From Microbacterium murale (GTDB taxonomy: Bacteria > Actinomycetota > Actinomycetes > Actinomycetales > Microbacteriaceae): a stretch of 64,000 nt of DNA. Both the position numbers and the translations under genes were made by a program. The stretch spans positions 107,613 to 171,612 of the forward strand of contig NZ_BMCM01000003.1 in the NCBI RefSeq assembly GCF_014635185.1, given 5' to 3'. Positions 2,053 to 64,000 of the stretch are shown here, piece by piece; position 1 is the first letter of the stretch; every line of letters begins with the position of its first letter. Under the pieces are notes generated by a model. The model did no database searches. It saw nothing but the letters and a program-made list of their open reading frames with translations, and was not told the origin of the DNA.

Positions 2053-2396
2053 GCCCATCCCATCTCGTGCAGCTGCGTGTCGTCGATGCCGAAGAAGTGC
2101 GCGATCTCGTGTACGAGGGTCGTGTGGACCTCTTCGCGGAGTTCCTCTTCATCCTCGCACTCGGCGAGATGCGATTCTCGGAACAGGATGATGCGATCGG
2201 GCAACTCGCCCATCCCGTACTGGCCGCGCTCGGTCAGCGCGAGCCCGTCGTACATTCCGAGCAGATCGAGACTTCCGTCCTCCGGACGGTCTTCGACGAC
2301 GAAGATCAGATTCTCCAGGCCGTCCACCATCTCGTCGGGCAGTCTGTCGAGCTCGTCGACGACGAGCTGTTCGAAGGTCGCGGCATCCATTTCCAT
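2049..2396 (-). CDS. Minimal zincin-like metallopeptidase (DUF1025-type)
   Basis: A 115-residue acidic protein with a zinc-protease signature HEIAHFFGIDD near the C-terminus (HExxHxxGxxD), in which the two His and the last Asp are expected zinc ligands and Glu the catalytic base. This is the minimal metallopeptidase family common in actinobacteria; substrates are unknown. Start chosen at ATG 2396 (MEMDAATFEQ), because residues further upstream (Cys/Ser-rich) do not look like protein and lie close to the neighbouring gene's end. It overlaps clpS, which suggests a shared proteolysis role. Confidence 0.8.
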   Translation of the reverse strand: MEMDAATFEQLVVDELDRLPDEMVDGLENLIFVVEDRPEDGSLDLLGMYDGLALTERGQYGMGELPDRIILFRESHLAECEDEEELREEVHTTLVHEIAHFFGIDDTQLHEMGWA

Positions 2397-2424
2397 CACC
2401 GACCAGCCTATGGCCCGGCCGGCG

Positions 2425-3054
2425 TCAGTGGACGAACAGCAGCAGCGCGGCGACGGCGAGGAACAGCACACCGAACACGGTGTTCAGGATGCGCTGGCCA
2501 CGTGCGGTGCGTGTGACACGTTGAAACGGTCGGGCGGCGGTCGCGAAGAATCCCCACATCACGGCGACGTCGACGATGATGACGGTCGTGATCAGGATCA
2601 GGTACTGGGGCAGGGCCGGCTGGTCGAGTCGGATGAACTGCGGGATGAACGCGAGGAAGAAGACGATCGCCTTCGGGTTGAGAAGATTCACCCAGAAGCC
2701 GCGTCTGATCATCGACCAGTGACTCTCCGGCAGCCGCGGACCATCGGCAGCCGCCTCGCCGGCACTGCGGACGCGCGTGAAGATCAGCCTTAGACCGAGG
2801 TACGCGAGATACGCGGCCCCCGCGTAGCGGATGATGTCGAACAGCAGGGGAGAGCGGGAGACGATGAGCCCCACGCCCGCCGCGACGATGACGACATGCA
2901 CGATCAATGCGAGCTGTTGGCCGATGATGCCCCACACCGAACGCCGCCAGCCCTCGGCGAGCGAGTTCGACATCGTGTTGATCGCGCCGGCCCCTGGAGT
3001 GAAGCTGATGACGACGGATGCCGCGAGCAGGGAGAGCCAGACCGTCAGAGACAC
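2425..3054 (-). CDS. LysE/RhtB-family amino-acid exporter
   Basis: A 209-residue membrane protein with six predicted hydrophobic segments and the family signature FTPGAGAINTMSNSLAEGWRR near the N-terminus. The segment WVNLLNPKAIVFFLAFIPQF is the usual LysE/RhtB central motif. These proteins export amino acids such as lysine, homoserine or threonine; the specific substrate is not predictable. The GTG start at 3054 is preceded by TAGGAT with a 6-nt spacer, so the transcript is probably leaderless. Confidence 0.88.
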   Translation of the reverse strand: MSLTVWLSLLAASVVISFTPGAGAINTMSNSLAEGWRRSVWGIIGQQLALIVHVVIVAAGVGLIVSRSPLLFDIIRYAGAAYLAYLGLRLIFTRVRSAGEAAADGPRLPESHWSMIRRGFWVNLLNPKAIVFFLAFIPQFIRLDQPALPQYLILITTVIIVDVAVMWGFFATAARPFQRVTRTARGQRILNTVFGVLFLAVAALLLFVH

Positions 3055-3060
3055 CAGGCA

Positions 3061-3066
3061 ATCCTA
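3061..3066 (-). promoter_or_regulatory. -10 hexamer, leaderless LysE-family gene
   Basis: Reads TAGGAT on the minus strand, 6 nt before the GTG at 3054, so transcription should begin at or next to the start codon. No Shine-Dalgarno is present. Confidence 0.55.
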
Positions 3067-3128
3067 TGGGCGCGGTCATGCGTGGATGTTCCAGGCACGA
3101 CACCCGCGTGATTCCGAGCCGCGTGAGC

Positions 3129-5168
<2,040 letters not shown>

Positions 5169-50684: not shown

Positions 50685-50945
50685 ATGTCTCACGGTGAAG
50701 ATTCATACATGTCCAGCGGGGAGCGCAAGTACTGGTACAACACCAATACGGGCCAGGTCGAGCACGGCTACGAGTCGCCCGCTGTCTACCGCGTCGGCCC
50801 CTTCGACACAGCAGAGGCTGCAGCCAACGCGCTCGAGACGATTCGTGCGCGCTCTGAAGCGTGGGCTGTGGAAGAAGCCATCGACGAGGACTGGCGCAAG
50901 GCGACCGACGTACGCAAGGCGACTGACGTGGATGGGAAGCACTAG
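50685..50945 (+). CDS. SPOR-like small protein
   Basis: An 86-residue soluble protein. ERKYWYNTNTGQVEHGYESPAVYRVGPFDTAEAAANALETIRARSEAW resembles an actinobacterial SPOR-like domain. The C-terminus is acidic and basic. It lies between ppgK and glnA2 with a good Shine-Dalgarno (GAAGGGAG) and the same strand as glnA2, 10 nt before it. Role unknown. Confidence 0.75.
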   Translation: MSHGEDSYMSSGERKYWYNTNTGQVEHGYESPAVYRVGPFDTAEAAANALETIRARSEAWAVEEAIDEDWRKATDVRKATDVDGKH

Positions 50946-50955
50946 GCATATGGGC

Positions 50956-52293
50956 ATGGACAAGCAGCGAGACTTCGTGCTGCGCACGATCGAAGAACGT
51001 GGTGTGAAGTTCGTCCGGCTCTGGTTCACCGACGTGATCGGCACGCTGAAGTCCGTGGCCATCGCGCCGGCCGAGGTCGAGGGCGCGTTCGCCGAGGGGA
51101 TCGGGTTCGACGGCTCGGCGATCGAGGGCCTCACGCGAACCTACGAGTCGGATCTGCTCGCGCAGCCCGACCCGACGACATTCCAGACGCTGCCGTGGCG
51201 GGGCGAGGTCGACCCGACCGCCCGCATGTTCTGCGATCTCACCACTCCGGACGGCCAGCCCGCCGTCGCAGACCCGCGGCACGTGCTCAAGCGCACGCTC
51301 GCCAAGGCCGCCGACGCCGGATTCACGTTCTACACTCACCCCGAGATCGAGTTCTACCTGCTCAAGTCCTCGGTGATCGGACCCGAGGGTCCCGTGCCCG
51401 TCGACTCCGCAGGATACTTCGACAACGTGCCCGGCGGGACGGCTCACGATTTCCGCCGACGCTCGGTGCGGATGCTGGAAGACCTGGGTATCTCGGTCGA
51501 GTACAGCCACCACGAAGGCGGACCGGGTCAGAACGAGATCGACCTGCGCTACGCGGACGCGCTCACCATGGCTGACAACATCATGACGTTCCGCACGGTC
51601 GTCAAGGAGGTCGCGATCGAGCAGGGCGTCTACGCGACGTTCATGCCGAAGCCGATGAGCGACCAGCCCGGTAGCGGGATGCACACGCACATGTCGCTGT
51701 TCGAGGGCGACCAGAACGCCTTCTGGGAGGAAGGCGCCCAGTACCAGCTCTCCAAGACAGGTCGGCATTTCATCGCCGGCCTCCTCAAGCACGCCAACGA
51801 GATCGCCGCGGTCACCAATCAGTTCGTGAACTCGTACAAGCGACTGTGGGGCGGTGACGAAGCGCCCAGCTTCGTGACATGGGGCCACACCAACCGCTCC
51901 GCCCTCATCCGCGTGCCGATGTACAAGCCGCACAAGAGCCAGTCCTCGCGTGTCGAGTACCGGGGCCTCGACTCGGCCGCCAACCCGTATCTCGCTTACG
52001 CGCTGCTGCTCGCCGCAGGTCTCAAGGGCATCGAGGAGGAGTACGAGCTGCCGCCAGAGGCCGAGAACAACGTGTGGTCGCTGAGCGATGCGGAGCGCCG
52101 TGCGCTCGGTTACTCCTCACTGCCGGCCAGCCTGGACCATGCCCTCGAGTACATGGAGTCATCGGAGCTCGTCGCCGAGACGCTCGGCGAGCAGGTCTTC
52201 AACTACGTGCTGCTCAACAAGCGCAAGGAGTGGGAAGCCTACCGCGGTCAGGTCACCCCGTTCGAGCTGAAGAGCAACCTCGAGCTGCTCTGA
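50956..52293 (+). CDS. glnA2: Glutamine synthetase, GlnA2 type
   Basis: A 445-residue type I-like glutamine synthetase. Motifs: IGFDGSAIEGLTR, HPEIEFYLL, the GlnP region GGPGQNEIDLRYADALTMADN with HH, FMPKPMSDQPGSGMHTHMSL and the VEYRGLDSAANPYLAYALLLAAG run. At the position of the adenylylation Tyr of GlnA (NLYDLP-like), this protein has NNVWSLSDAERR, without Tyr, so it is unlikely to be adenylylated by the adjacent GlnE. ATG 50956 used; ATG 50950 is in frame. Confidence 0.9.
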   Translation: MDKQRDFVLRTIEERGVKFVRLWFTDVIGTLKSVAIAPAEVEGAFAEGIGFDGSAIEGLTRTYESDLLAQPDPTTFQTLPWRGEVDPTARMFCDLTTPDGQPAVADPRHVLKRTLAKAADAGFTFYTHPEIEFYLLKSSVIGPEGPVPVDSAGYFDNVPGGTAHDFRRRSVRMLEDLGISVEYSHHEGGPGQNEIDLRYADALTMADNIMTFRTVVKEVAIEQGVYATFMPKPMSDQPGSGMHTHMSLFEGDQNAFWEEGAQYQLSKTGRHFIAGLLKHANEIAAVTNQFVNSYKRLWGGDEAPSFVTWGHTNRSALIRVPMYKPHKSQSSRVEYRGLDSAANPYLAYALLLAAGLKGIEEEYELPPEAENNVWSLSDAERRALGYSSLPASLDHALEYMESSELVAETLGEQVFNYVLLNKRKEWEAYRGQVTPFELKSNLELL

Positions 52294-52297
52294 GCCG

Positions 52298-55273
52298 ATG
52301 GCTCGATCGGACTCCACCTCTTCGCTGTCGTCACTGGCACGGGTCGGCTTCACCGGCCTGAGTGCTGCCGCCGAGGTGCTCGACGAGCTGTCGACGCTGA
52401 CCGGCATCGAACGCTCGACACTCGTCGATGGCGTGGTCGCTGCGGACCCAGACGGTGCAGCCGGTGGGATGCTCAGGGTCGCGCGCCGCGACCCTGACGC
52501 GCTGAGGCGCGTGCTGCGCGATGAAGATGCCAGGGGCATCTGCTGGCGCGTCTTCGGCGCGTCGACCGGTCTGGCCGACTTCTTCCTCCGCCATCCCGAC
52601 CAGCTCTCCGTGCTCACCGAGATCGGACCGCTCGTGCCGAGCGCAGCGACGCTGCAGGAGCGCCTGCTCGACTCGGTGGGTGCGAAGGAAGGTTTCGCGG
52701 AGACCGCGGACGATTCCGCGCTGGTCGCCCTGCGGATCGCATATCGCCGCTCGCTGGCTGAGATCGCCGCGGTCGACCTGTCAGCACCCGAACCCGCGTT
52801 GCGGATCGCTGCGGTGTCCGCTGCGCTTGCGGATGCCGCGGGCGCAGCACTGGAAGCATCGCTCGCTGTCGCCCGCACCAGGGTCGCCCTCACCCGCCCG
52901 CGCGAGGAGGTCGCTCTCACCCGGCTGGCGATCATCGGGATGGGCAAGGCGGGCGCTCGCGAACTCAACTACGTGAGCGACGTCGATGTGATCTTCGTAG
53001 GCGGCACGGCAGACGAAGAGCGCCTCGAAGAGGGACGCTCCATCGACATCGCCACGAAGCTGGCGATCGAGACGATGCGCGGGCTGGAGGGCATCGAGGT
53101 CGAACCACCGCTGTGGGAGGTCGACGCGAACCTTCGTCCGGAGGGCAAGCAGGGCGCGCTGGTGCGCTCTCTCGGCTCGCACCTGGCCTACTACGACCGG
53201 TGGGCGAAGAGCTGGGAGTTCCAGGCCCTGCTCAAGGCGCGTCCGCTCGCCGGAGACGCGAGCCTGGGCGACGCGTACATCGAGGCCGTGCAGCCGAAGA
53301 TCTGGTCGAGTGCCGCTCGCGAGAACTTCGTCGACAGCGTTCAGCGGATGCGTGAGCGCGTCACGGAGCACATCGGTCCCGAAGACGCCACCCACCAGAT
53401 CAAGCTCGGCGTCGGTGGGTTGCGGGACATCGAGTTCACCGTGCAGCTTCTGCAGCTCGTGCACGGCCTCACCGATCCGAGCCTGCGCACGCGAGGGACA
53501 CTGGAGAGCCTGGACGCTCTCGTAGCGGGCGGCTACATCGGCCGGGAGGATGCCGCGACCTTCGCTTCCGATTACCGGACGCTCCGGCTGCTGGAGCACA
53601 GGCAGCAGTTGCGCGAGCTGTCCCGCACGCATCTCATGCCGAGAACACCCGACGGATTGCGCATCCTCGCCAGGGCCACCGGACTCGCCGACACCGGCGA
53701 CGGCATCTGGGCGCTCTGGGAGAGCGTGCGCCGTGAGGTGCGCGACATCCACACCCGCCTGTTCTACCGACCGCTGCTGAGCGCTGTCGCCGCGCTGCCG
53801 GAAGAAGAGCGCACGCTCTCGACAGCGCAGGCTCATGACCGGCTCGCCGCCATCGGTTTCCGTGACGCCGCAGGGGCTCTGCGCCATATCGGCGCGCTCA
53901 CCTCCGGGATCAGCCGCAAGGTCACGATCCAACGTCATCTCATGCCGATCATGGTGCGCTGGTTCGCCGACGGCAGCGACCCCGACTACGCGCTGCTCGC
54001 CTTCCGGAGGATCAGCGAGAGGCTGGGGGACACGTCCTGGTTCCTCCGGATGCTGCGCGACTCCTCAGGCGCGGCCGAGAGCCTCACGCGGCTGCTGTCG
54101 GCATCGCGGTACATCGGCGAGCTCATGGAGTGGATCCCGGAGTCGGTCGCGTGGCTGGACACCCCAGAGCGGCTTCGCCCACGCGCCGCATCGCAGCTCT
54201 ACGAAGAGGCGAGGGCGATACAGACGAGGCACAAGTCCGTCGGGCCCGCCCTGAAGGCGGTTCGCGCGCTGCGGCGGCGCGAGCTGCTTCGCACGGCGAT
54301 GGGCGCCGTGCTCGATGTGCTGACGATCGAAGAGATCGCGACCTCTCTCACCGCGATCACCGACGCGACCATTCAGGCAGGTCTCCGCGCAGTACGGCGG
54401 GAGGTGGTGCCTCCTGAGGACGACGATCTCGACTTCGCCGTCATCGGAATGGGGCGCTTCGGCGGCGCGGAACTGGGCTTCGGATCGGATGCCGACATCC
54501 TCTACGTGTATGACGCGAACGGGATCGATCCGCAGCGCGCTCAGACCCTGTCGACGCAACTGGTCTCCGGCCTCCGCGAACATCTGACCGACCACCGTGT
54601 GCCCCTCGATCTTGACGCCGACCTGCGTCCTGAGGGACGCCAGGGCCCTGTGGTGCGATCGATCGCGGCGTACACCGAGTACTACCGGCGCTGGTCTGTG
54701 TCGTGGGAGGCGCAGGCGCTGCTTCGCGCGCGCGGCGTCGCAGGCAGTGCACAGCTGATCACGAAGTTCATGGCATTGGCGGACAGCATCCGCTATCCGG
54801 AACAGGTCGACCAGCAGGGGCTGCGCGAGATCAAGCGGATCAAGGCCCGTGTCGAAGGGGAGCGGCTTCCCCAGGGCGCCGATCCGCATAGACACCTCAA
54901 ACTGGGCCCCGGGTCGCTCAGCGACGTCGAGTGGCTGGTTCAGCTCGTGCAGCTGCAGCACGCTCACGCCGTGCCGGCGCTGCGCACGACATCGACCCTG
55001 GACGCACTTCACGCTGCGGTGGATGCGGAGCTGGTGCCGGCCGACGATGCGGAGAAGCTGCGCGAGGCGTGGCTGCTGGCGAGCAGGCTGCGTTCAGCGA
55101 TCACGCTGCGCACGGGGCACACCGCGGACATGCTCCCGGCCGACCGTCGTGAACTCGACGCACTCGGCCACCTGCTCGGCTACCCCGACGGCTCGGCCAC
55201 GGCCGTGGAGGAGGACTATCTCGGCGTCACCAGACGCGCTCGACGAGCGTTCGAGAACCTCTTCTACGGCTGA
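52298..55273 (+). CDS. glnE: Glutamine synthetase adenylyltransferase/deadenylylase
   Basis: A 991-residue bifunctional enzyme that switches glutamine synthetase off and on by AMP transfer to a Tyr. There are two nucleotidyltransferase domains. The N-terminal has SDVDVIFVGG (DxD, phosphorylase), with LRPEGKQG nearby; the C-terminal has GSDADILYVYD and DLRPEGRQGPVVRS (adenylylase). The intervening GlnD-like region is helical. It begins 4 nt after glnA2, so it is co-transcribed with it. Its main target should be the type I enzyme encoded at 56629-58053. Confidence 0.96.
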   Translation: MARSDSTSSLSSLARVGFTGLSAAAEVLDELSTLTGIERSTLVDGVVAADPDGAAGGMLRVARRDPDALRRVLRDEDARGICWRVFGASTGLADFFLRHPDQLSVLTEIGPLVPSAATLQERLLDSVGAKEGFAETADDSALVALRIAYRRSLAEIAAVDLSAPEPALRIAAVSAALADAAGAALEASLAVARTRVALTRPREEVALTRLAIIGMGKAGARELNYVSDVDVIFVGGTADEERLEEGRSIDIATKLAIETMRGLEGIEVEPPLWEVDANLRPEGKQGALVRSLGSHLAYYDRWAKSWEFQALLKARPLAGDASLGDAYIEAVQPKIWSSAARENFVDSVQRMRERVTEHIGPEDATHQIKLGVGGLRDIEFTVQLLQLVHGLTDPSLRTRGTLESLDALVAGGYIGREDAATFASDYRTLRLLEHRQQLRELSRTHLMPRTPDGLRILARATGLADTGDGIWALWESVRREVRDIHTRLFYRPLLSAVAALPEEERTLSTAQAHDRLAAIGFRDAAGALRHIGALTSGISRKVTIQRHLMPIMVRWFADGSDPDYALLAFRRISERLGDTSWFLRMLRDSSGAAESLTRLLSASRYIGELMEWIPESVAWLDTPERLRPRAASQLYEEARAIQTRHKSVGPALKAVRALRRRELLRTAMGAVLDVLTIEEIATSLTAITDATIQAGLRAVRREVVPPEDDDLDFAVIGMGRFGGAELGFGSDADILYVYDANGIDPQRAQTLSTQLVSGLREHLTDHRVPLDLDADLRPEGRQGPVVRSIAAYTEYYRRWSVSWEAQALLRARGVAGSAQLITKFMALADSIRYPEQVDQQGLREIKRIKARVEGERLPQGADPHRHLKLGPGSLSDVEWLVQLVQLQHAHAVPALRTTSTLDALHAAVDAELVPADDAEKLREAWLLASRLRSAITLRTGHTADMLPADRRELDALGHLLGYPDGSATAVEEDYLGVTRRARRAFENLFYG

Positions 55274-56628: not shown

Positions 56629-58053
56629 TCAGACCCCGTAGTACAGCTCGAACTCGAACGGGTGCGGACGCTGCGCCATCGGCAGGATCTCGTTCTCGAT
56701 CTTGTACGAGATCCAGGTCTCGATGAGTTCAGGTGTGAAGACGCCGCCCTCGAGCAGGAACTGGTGGTCGTCGCGGAGCGCGTCGAGCGAGTCCAGCAGC
56801 GAGTTCGGCACCTGCGGGATGTTCTTGGCCTCCTCGGGCGGAAGCTCGTAGAGGTCCTTGTCGACCGGCTCGTGCGGCTCGATGCGGTTCTTGATCCCGT
56901 CGAGGCCCGCCATCAGCTGTGCGGCGAACGCGAGGTACGGGTTACCCGAGGCATCCGGAGCGCGGAACTCGATGCGCTTCGCCTTCGGGTTCGAGCCGGT
57001 GATCGGGATGCGGATCGCTGCCGAGCGGTTGCCGGCGGAGTAGACCAGGTTGACCGGAGCCTCGAAGCCCTTGACCAGACGGTGGTAGCTGTTCAGCGTC
57101 GGGTTCGTGAAGGCCAGCAGCGCCGGCGCGTGTGCGAGGATGCCGCCGATGTACCAGCGGGCGATGTCGCTGAGCTGGCCGTAGCCTGCCTCGTCGTAGA
57201 ACAGCGGCTTGCCGTCGCTCCACAGCGACTGGTGCGTGTGCATGCCAGATCCGTTGTCGCCGTAGAGCGGCTTCGGCATGAACGTCGCCGACTTGCCCCA
57301 CTCTTCTGCGGTGTTCTTGACGATGTACTTGAACTTCAGGATGTCGTCGGCCGCGTGCACCATCGTGTCGAAGCGGTAGTTGATCTCCTGCTGACCGCCG
57401 GTGCCGACCTCGTGGTGCGAACGCTCGAGGATGAATCCGGCTTCGATCAGCTTGAGCGTGATGTCATCGCGGAGGTCCGCCGTCTTGTCGACGGGGGCCA
57501 CGGGGAAGTATCCGCCCTTGTACGGCGTCTTGTTGCCGAGGTTGCCGCCTTCTTCTTCGCGACCCGTGTTCCAGGCGCCCTCTTCGGAGTCGACGCTGTA
57601 GAAGCTCGAGTTCGAGGTCACCGAATAACGGACGTCGTCGAAGATGTAGAACTCCGCCTCCGGGGCGAAGAACGCCGTGTCGGCGATGCCGGTCGAGACG
57701 AGGTACTTCTCCGCCTTCTTGGCGACCTGACGCGGGTCCTTCGAGTAGATCTCGCCGGTGCGCGGGTTGTAGATGTCGAAGAGCATCACGAGGGTGCTCG
57801 CCTCGCGGAACGGGTCGACGTACGCGGTCGTGACGTCGGGGATGAGCTGCATATCGGATTCGTGGATGCTGGCGAATCCGCGGATGGACGAGCCGTCGAA
57901 CAGCTGGCCGTCAGTGAAGAATGCCTCGTCGACCGTCGACGCGGGGATGTTGAAGTGCTGCTGGACACCGGGCAGATCAGTGAAACGGATGTCAAGGAAC
58001 TTGACGTCGTTCTCCTTGATATAGCTCAGAACCTCGGACGAATCGGTGAACAT
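56629..58053 (-). CDS. glnA: Glutamine synthetase type I
   Basis: A 474-residue ammonia-assimilating enzyme. [63 protein letters not shown] and the NRSAAIRIP and VEFR-like steps form the active site. The adenylylation Tyr is expected in [11 protein letters not shown]. It is on the strand opposite to glnA2-glnE, with its own terminator. The start ATG 58053 is well placed; the 121-nt gap to the RDD gene holds both promoters. Confidence 0.97.
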
Positions 58054-62698: not shown

Positions 62699-63949
62699 TC
62701 AGGCGCCGAGGTTCGCTGCGAAGTCCGCGCCTTCGAGGCGGGTCTTGATCGCTCCGAGGAAGCGAGCAGCATCCGCACCGTCGATGATGCGGTGATCGTA
62801 CGACAGCGCGAGGTAGACGTACGAGCGCACGGCGATCGCGTCGACGCCGTCGACCTTGACCAGGCCCGGGCGCTTGAAGACGACACCGGTGCCGAGGATC
62901 GCAGACTGCGGCAGGAACACGAGAGGTGTGTCGAACAGCGCGCCGCGCGAACCAGTGTTGGTCAGCGTGAAGGTGCCGCCGGCGAGCTCGTCGGGCTTCA
63001 GCTTGTTGTCCCGAGAGCGTGCCGCGAGGTCACCGATCTCGTGCGCGATCTGTGCGAGGTTCTTCGTCGCGGCGTCGCGCAGCACGGGAGTGAGCAGCCC
63101 ACGTTCCGTGTCGACGGCGATCGAGACGTTCTCCGTGTCCGGGTAGACGATGCTCTCGCCGTCGACCGTGGCGTTGATGATCGGGAACGCCTGCAGAGCC
63201 TCGGCTGCAGCCAATGCGAAGAACGGCAGGAACGAGAGCTTGTCGCCGGTCTTCTGCTGGAACTCCGCCTTGACGCTGTCGCGGTAGTTCGCGACGTTCG
63301 TCACATCGACCTCGACGATCGTGGTGAGCTGAGCGGTCTGCTGCATCGACTCGACCGCGCGCTTGGCGACGACCTTGCGCAGACGCGACATCGGCTGCGT
63401 GGTGCCGCGCAGCGGCGACACCTCGAGCGGTGCAGCTGCCGGCGCTGCGGTGGCAGCCGCGGCCGGTGCGGCGGACTTGGACTCTGCGGCCTTGAGGACA
63501 TCCTCCTTGCGGATTCGCCCGCCCACGCCGGAGCCCTTGACGCTCGAAAGGTCCACACCCTGCTGCGACGCGAGGCGCCGCACGAGAGGTGTGACGTAGA
63601 CGTTGTCGCCGTCGGTCGCGGCCGGCGCCGACTCGGCGGATGCCGGAGCCGGTGCGGCGGCCTGAGCCGGTGCGGCGGCGGGTGCTGCCTCCGGGGCGGG
63701 TGCCGGCGCAGCTTCTGCCGGTGCCGGAGCGGCGGGGGCCTCTGCGGCCGGTGCGGCCTGCGGTGCGGGAGCAGCAGGAGCCTCAGCGGCAGGAGCCTCA
63801 GCAGCGGGCGCTTCAGCAGCGGGCGCTGCCGAAGGCGCGCCCGAACCGACGCGTGCGAGCACGCTGCCCACCGCGATGGTCTCGTCTTCGGCGAGCGCTC
63901 TGGCATCGGCGGTCAATCCCGCCCACCAGCGTTCGATTGCCTTCATCAT
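62699..63949 (-). CDS. sucB: Dihydrolipoamide acyltransferase E2, lipoyl domain missing
   Basis: A 416-residue acyltransferase. Residues 20-36 (AEDETIAVGSVLARVGS) match only the end of a lipoyl domain; the segment before has no lipoyl-Lys motif (DKx) in any frame. An Ala/Pro-rich linker fills 37-112, a peripheral subunit-binding domain 116-153 (VTPLVRRLASQQGVDLSSVKGSGVGGRIRKEDVL), and the catalytic domain 182-416 ends in YDHRIIDG (H386, D390). The start ATG at 63949 or 63946 has AGAGGA upstream. Whether an intact lipoyl domain lies upstream of position 64000 cannot be seen, but it would not be continuous. Confidence 0.85.
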   Translation of the reverse strand: MMKAIERWWAGLTADARALAEDETIAVGSVLARVGSGAPSAAPAAEAPAAEAPAAEAPAAPAPQAAPAAEAPAAPAPAEAAPAPAPEAAPAAAPAQAAAPAPASAESAPAATDGDNVYVTPLVRRLASQQGVDLSSVKGSGVGGRIRKEDVLKAAESKSAAPAAAATAAPAAAPLEVSPLRGTTQPMSRLRKVVAKRAVESMQQTAQLTTIVEVDVTNVANYRDSVKAEFQQKTGDKLSFLPFFALAAAEALQAFPIINATVDGESIVYPDTENVSIAVDTERGLLTPVLRDAATKNLAQIAHEIGDLAARSRDNKLKPDELAGGTFTLTNTGSRGALFDTPLVFLPQSAILGTGVVFKRPGLVKVDGVDAIAVRSYVYLALSYDHRIIDGADAARFLGAIKTRLEGADFAANLGA

Positions 63950-64000
63950 CAGTCCTCTCGTAGTGGATGGATCGTGGTTCTGCTTCAACCGAGTCCGAGT

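Follow-up and report, generated by a model that had tools for sequence, protein, structure and literature searches.

An apparently lipoyl-free E2 acyltransferase gene in Microbacterium murale as a probable product of a chimeric contig end

The E2 locus and its neighbourhood

The window, by which we mean the whole 64,000-nucleotide stretch of Microbacterium murale DNA analysed here (G000:C3:107613-171612), ends in a minus-strand reading frame at 62699-64000 that comprises 433 amino acids and is open as far as the window edge. At a threshold of E 0.001, Pfam lists two domains in this frame, E3_binding (PF02817, 57.3 bits) and 2-oxoacid_dh (PF00198, 240.3 bits), and detects no lipoyl domain, in agreement with the original prediction of an E2 gene that lacks a lipoyl domain and retains its catalytic and subunit-binding domains. 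The frame also carries a DHR motif in the catalytic domain, along with Ala/Pro linkers. The best NCBIfam model is TIGR02927 SucB_Actino (454.2 bits versus a curated cut-off of 423.45), and both the E3-binding and acyltransferase catalytic domains expected of this family are present. The match, however, starts at frame residue 37 and covers only profile positions 186-578 of 579, so that the frame enters the family profile mid-course and not at its start. The part that is E2 sequence begins near AEDET, in the closing portion of lipoyl domain 2, and continues through a linker, the E3-binding domain, and the catalytic domain (Table 1).

Elsewhere in the window, two glutamine-synthetase-like frames were recognised by eye at 50695-52293 (plus strand) and 56629-58053 (minus strand), with a long GlnE-resembling frame, likewise recognised by eye, between them at 52298-55273 (plus strand).

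Table 1. Features at the end of the window that bears the E2 frame (window positions).
Feature	Position	Strand	Evidence
SucB/AceF-type E2 gene, genuine 3′ part	62699..63894	-	PF02817, PF00198, TIGR02927 positions 186-578 of 579
Foreign contig tail, identical to C4:49686-49808	63878..64000	-	123 of 123 bases
Junction common to the E2 gene and the pilin-like gene, about 17 bases	63878..63894	-	C4 identity ends at 63878; upper limit from sucB matches in relatives
Window edge, also the edge of the assembled stretch	64000..64000	.	Next 10 bases are N (G000:C3:171613-171622)

A contig tail identical to a pilus-locus segment

The final 116 bases of the window recur with 100% identity at C4:49693-49808 (116/116), and the full run of identity with C4 extends over 123 bases, from window position 64000 down to 63878; the other 15 matches in the search, the window itself aside, are 14-30 bases long. 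The C4 locus sits in an 11-kb stretch without N, where the sequence is continuous and leads from the end and stop codon of a tadC-like frame, through a short spacer with AGAGGA, to a small ORF (MMKAIERWWAGLTADARALAEDETGDVPGW...) and further small ORFs. A frame near this pilus locus gives a T2SSF match (28.9 bits). The cluster looks to be of the Flp/tad type, in keeping with this nearby T2SSF frame, and the tadC-like label is provisional; for the small pilin-like protein, no Pfam family was found at E 0.001. In a 29-genome search, 21 of the 28 other genomes contained one relative of the pilin-like ORF each and seven contained none, while the M. murale genome gave two matches, the second of which covers residues 1-34 only and lies at the E2 contig end.

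The tail of the window thus holds the 3′ end of the tadC-like frame, the spacer with AGAGGA, and the ATG with the first codons of the small pilin-like gene. The AGAGGA site and ATG previously proposed for the 5′ end of the E2 gene are present, but as a perfect copy of C4 sequence and not as E2 sequence: no native start was found upstream of the linker and E3-binding domain, and the AGAGGA and ATG are the copied start of the pilin-like gene beside the N run. The E2 part does start inside a lipoyl domain, as had been suggested, although the sequence before AEDET is a copy of the pilus locus. A frameshift hiding a lipoyl domain inside the window was considered and rejected, positions 63895-64000 being pilus-locus sequence.

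The junction was delimited by a DNA search with window positions 63790-64000 as the query, which gave any match in 28 of 59 genomes and which divergent relatives of the tail escape. In relatives, the longer matches start at query bases 107-112 (the earliest corresponding to window position 63894), eight of them inside SucB_Actino places, and since C4 matches query bases 1-123, an overlap of about 17 bases belongs to both sources. Without this shared junction, the pilus-derived tail amounts to about 106 bases. No match in the 58 other genomes spans both the E2 and the pilus parts of the query, although in G051 (query 73-127, 80%) and G054 (query 102-158, 78%) a short, weak match does run across the junction.

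The gap and the sequence beyond it

The 10 N directly adjoining the last window base are presumably a fixed scaffold filler. Past them, on the minus strand, lie an ATG, a full lipoyl domain 1 with STDKVD (PF00364, 90.9 bits), an Ala/Pro/Glu linker, and the first part of lipoyl domain 2 (up to TVTRWLKQ), which reaches the gap. The strongest of nine genome-wide Biotin_lipoyl matches falls here (C3:171924-172139), on the same strand as the E2 frame, and a dihydrolipoamide-dehydrogenase-like gene (Pyr_redox_2, 222 bits) is located upstream of lipoyl domain 1. Of the N-terminal lipoyl domains belonging to SucB_Actino, domain 1 is whole across the gap and domain 2 is interrupted by the 10 N. The original prediction had named, as an outcome that would count against it, an assembly gap beyond which lipoyl coding sequence continues; such an arrangement was encountered here, in a frame interrupted by N.

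The size of the missing part can be estimated from two landmark words flanking the gap, which are spaced 107 bases apart in lipoyl domain 1 versus 10 N plus 108 bases here, 2 of these 108 belonging to the shared junction stretch. With the N left aside, the foreign tail has, within a base or two, the length of what lipoyl domain 2 lacks; with the 10 N at face value, the gap region exceeds its counterpart in lipoyl domain 1 by 11 bases.

These measurements bear on the possibility of a real recombination in the strain, in which copying of a tad piece into sucB destroyed lipoyl domain 2 and split domain 1 from the catalytic part. The scaffold as assembled reads in this way, and the foreign piece provides AGAGGA and an ATG in frame with E2; however, the duplicate is completely identical to its source, ends exactly at the N run, agrees so closely in length with what is missing once the N are set aside, and forms a joined sequence that no match in the 58 other genomes spans. 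Such a recombination is consequently very unlikely, and less likely still is its further implication, a split E2 served in trans by a lipoyl domain on a separate protein.

SucB_Actino genes in related genomes

SucB_Actino occurs in one frame with two TDK lipoylation motifs in 24 of the 28 other genomes of the genus, the motifs having been counted by a regular expression and not by a profile. In three others (G003, G009, and G019), it is present in two pieces, each at a contig end and broken in the lipoyl/linker region, whereas in G023, a fragmented assembly with 83% completeness, no SucB_Actino match over the cut-off was found. The motif survey of named loci covered the first 20 (L018-L037) of 80 loci. 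Five Microbacterium loci (L019-L023) have two motifs each, although their species may repeat those of the 28 genomes, and L018 begins at the edge of its contig, beyond the lipoyl region. Among other genera, ten loci (L024-L033) have one motif each, suggesting that lipoyl domains differ in number outside the genus or that the regular expression misses some, and L034, L035, and L037 have two. In L036, from the complete chromosome of Microbacterium elymi, E2 pieces occur in three frames at about 2382-4153 with TDK motifs in different frames, so that the gene looks frameshifted, through either a sequencing error or real pseudogene formation.

A genuine lipoyl-free E2 that borrows the lipoyl domains of another protein, as the E2 domain of actinobacterial OdhA probably does, could be read from the window frame alone, which has no lipoyl domain, and from the lipoyl-domain fragment encoded just upstream. 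We give this reading next to no credence: the start of the frame is a copy of the pilin-like gene, the E2 part begins within a lipoyl domain and not at a domain border, and the genus has one continuous gene in the 24 genomes mentioned above.

At the DNA level, lipoyl domains 1 and 2 are 75-82% identical, with exact common stretches of 17-50 bases (30 loci, G021 counted twice), and in M. murale the final 16 bases ahead of the gap match lipoyl domain 1 exactly. The repeated lipoyl domain DNA, together with the split copies, suggests that draft assemblies tend to break in the E2 gene.

A probable assembly origin of the lipoyl-free frame

The E2 gene is very probably an ordinary SucB/AceF-type gene with two lipoyl domains, broken at a chimeric, mis-assembled contig end to which a pilus piece has become attached. 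Two lipoyl domains and Ala/Pro/Glu linkers make the gene repetitive, and assembly would have broken it inside lipoyl domain 2; the stretch with the E2 3′ part would then have ended in the pilus-derived bases of the tad locus, joined via the common junction, and this chimeric stretch would have been placed next to that of lipoyl domain 1, with 10 N between the two. Assembly words are commonly longer than the overlap of about 17 bases, so that plain repeat collapse may not suffice and the error may have required a chimeric read or gap filling. We infer that mis-assembly or chimeric reads created the duplicate and that the gene is intact in the cell itself; on this evidence, the lipoyl-free form of the E2 exists only in the assembly. 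Three options had originally been offered, and the gap and the duplicate tail favour the contig-edge artefact over both a genuine lipoyl-free E2 and a truncated or recombinant gene.

The locus brings no new biology. It does show clearly how draft assemblies can fragment an E2 gene made repetitive by several lipoyl domains, the gene being broken in M. murale and in three of the 28 other genomes of the genus. It also illustrates that a chimeric contig end can mimic a gene with its own ribosome-binding site and start codon, and automatic annotation of this assembly could report a false lipoyl-free E2.

Other E2 genes and comparison with known systems

A genome search for further E2 genes with a lipoyl domain, as the original prediction had recommended, yielded two, at C3:363858-365312 and C1:722244-723653. 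Each has a single lipoyl domain and is directly preceded by an E1-beta-like frame (named by eye), and both score below the SucB_Actino cut-off. That either of them takes the place of the sucB E2 was considered and appears unlikely. The former (L002:349-1725, minus strand) combines its single lipoyl domain with a strong catalytic domain (270 bits); an E3-binding domain was found in it neither by Pfam nor in a whole-genome PF02817 search, and it probably carries a divergent one. A weak SucB_Actino match lies at C2:63695-64474 in a 1,231-aa frame, which the genome search for Biotin_lipoyl (E 0.001) left without a lipoyl match and which, judged by its length, is the probable OdhA of this genome.

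In OdhA/KGD, the actinobacterial two-in-one 2-oxoglutarate dehydrogenase, the E2 catalytic domain works with AceF lipoyl groups, and E2 and E1 are fused in one polypeptide (PMC10415282); the window gene differs from it in having no E1 part. It resembles TIGR02927 SucB_Actino in its E3-binding and catalytic domains, its Ala/Pro linkers, the E3-like gene upstream, and lipoyl domain 1 and part of domain 2 across the gap, and departs from that family in the assembly only, where 10 N and the foreign tail break up lipoyl domain 2.
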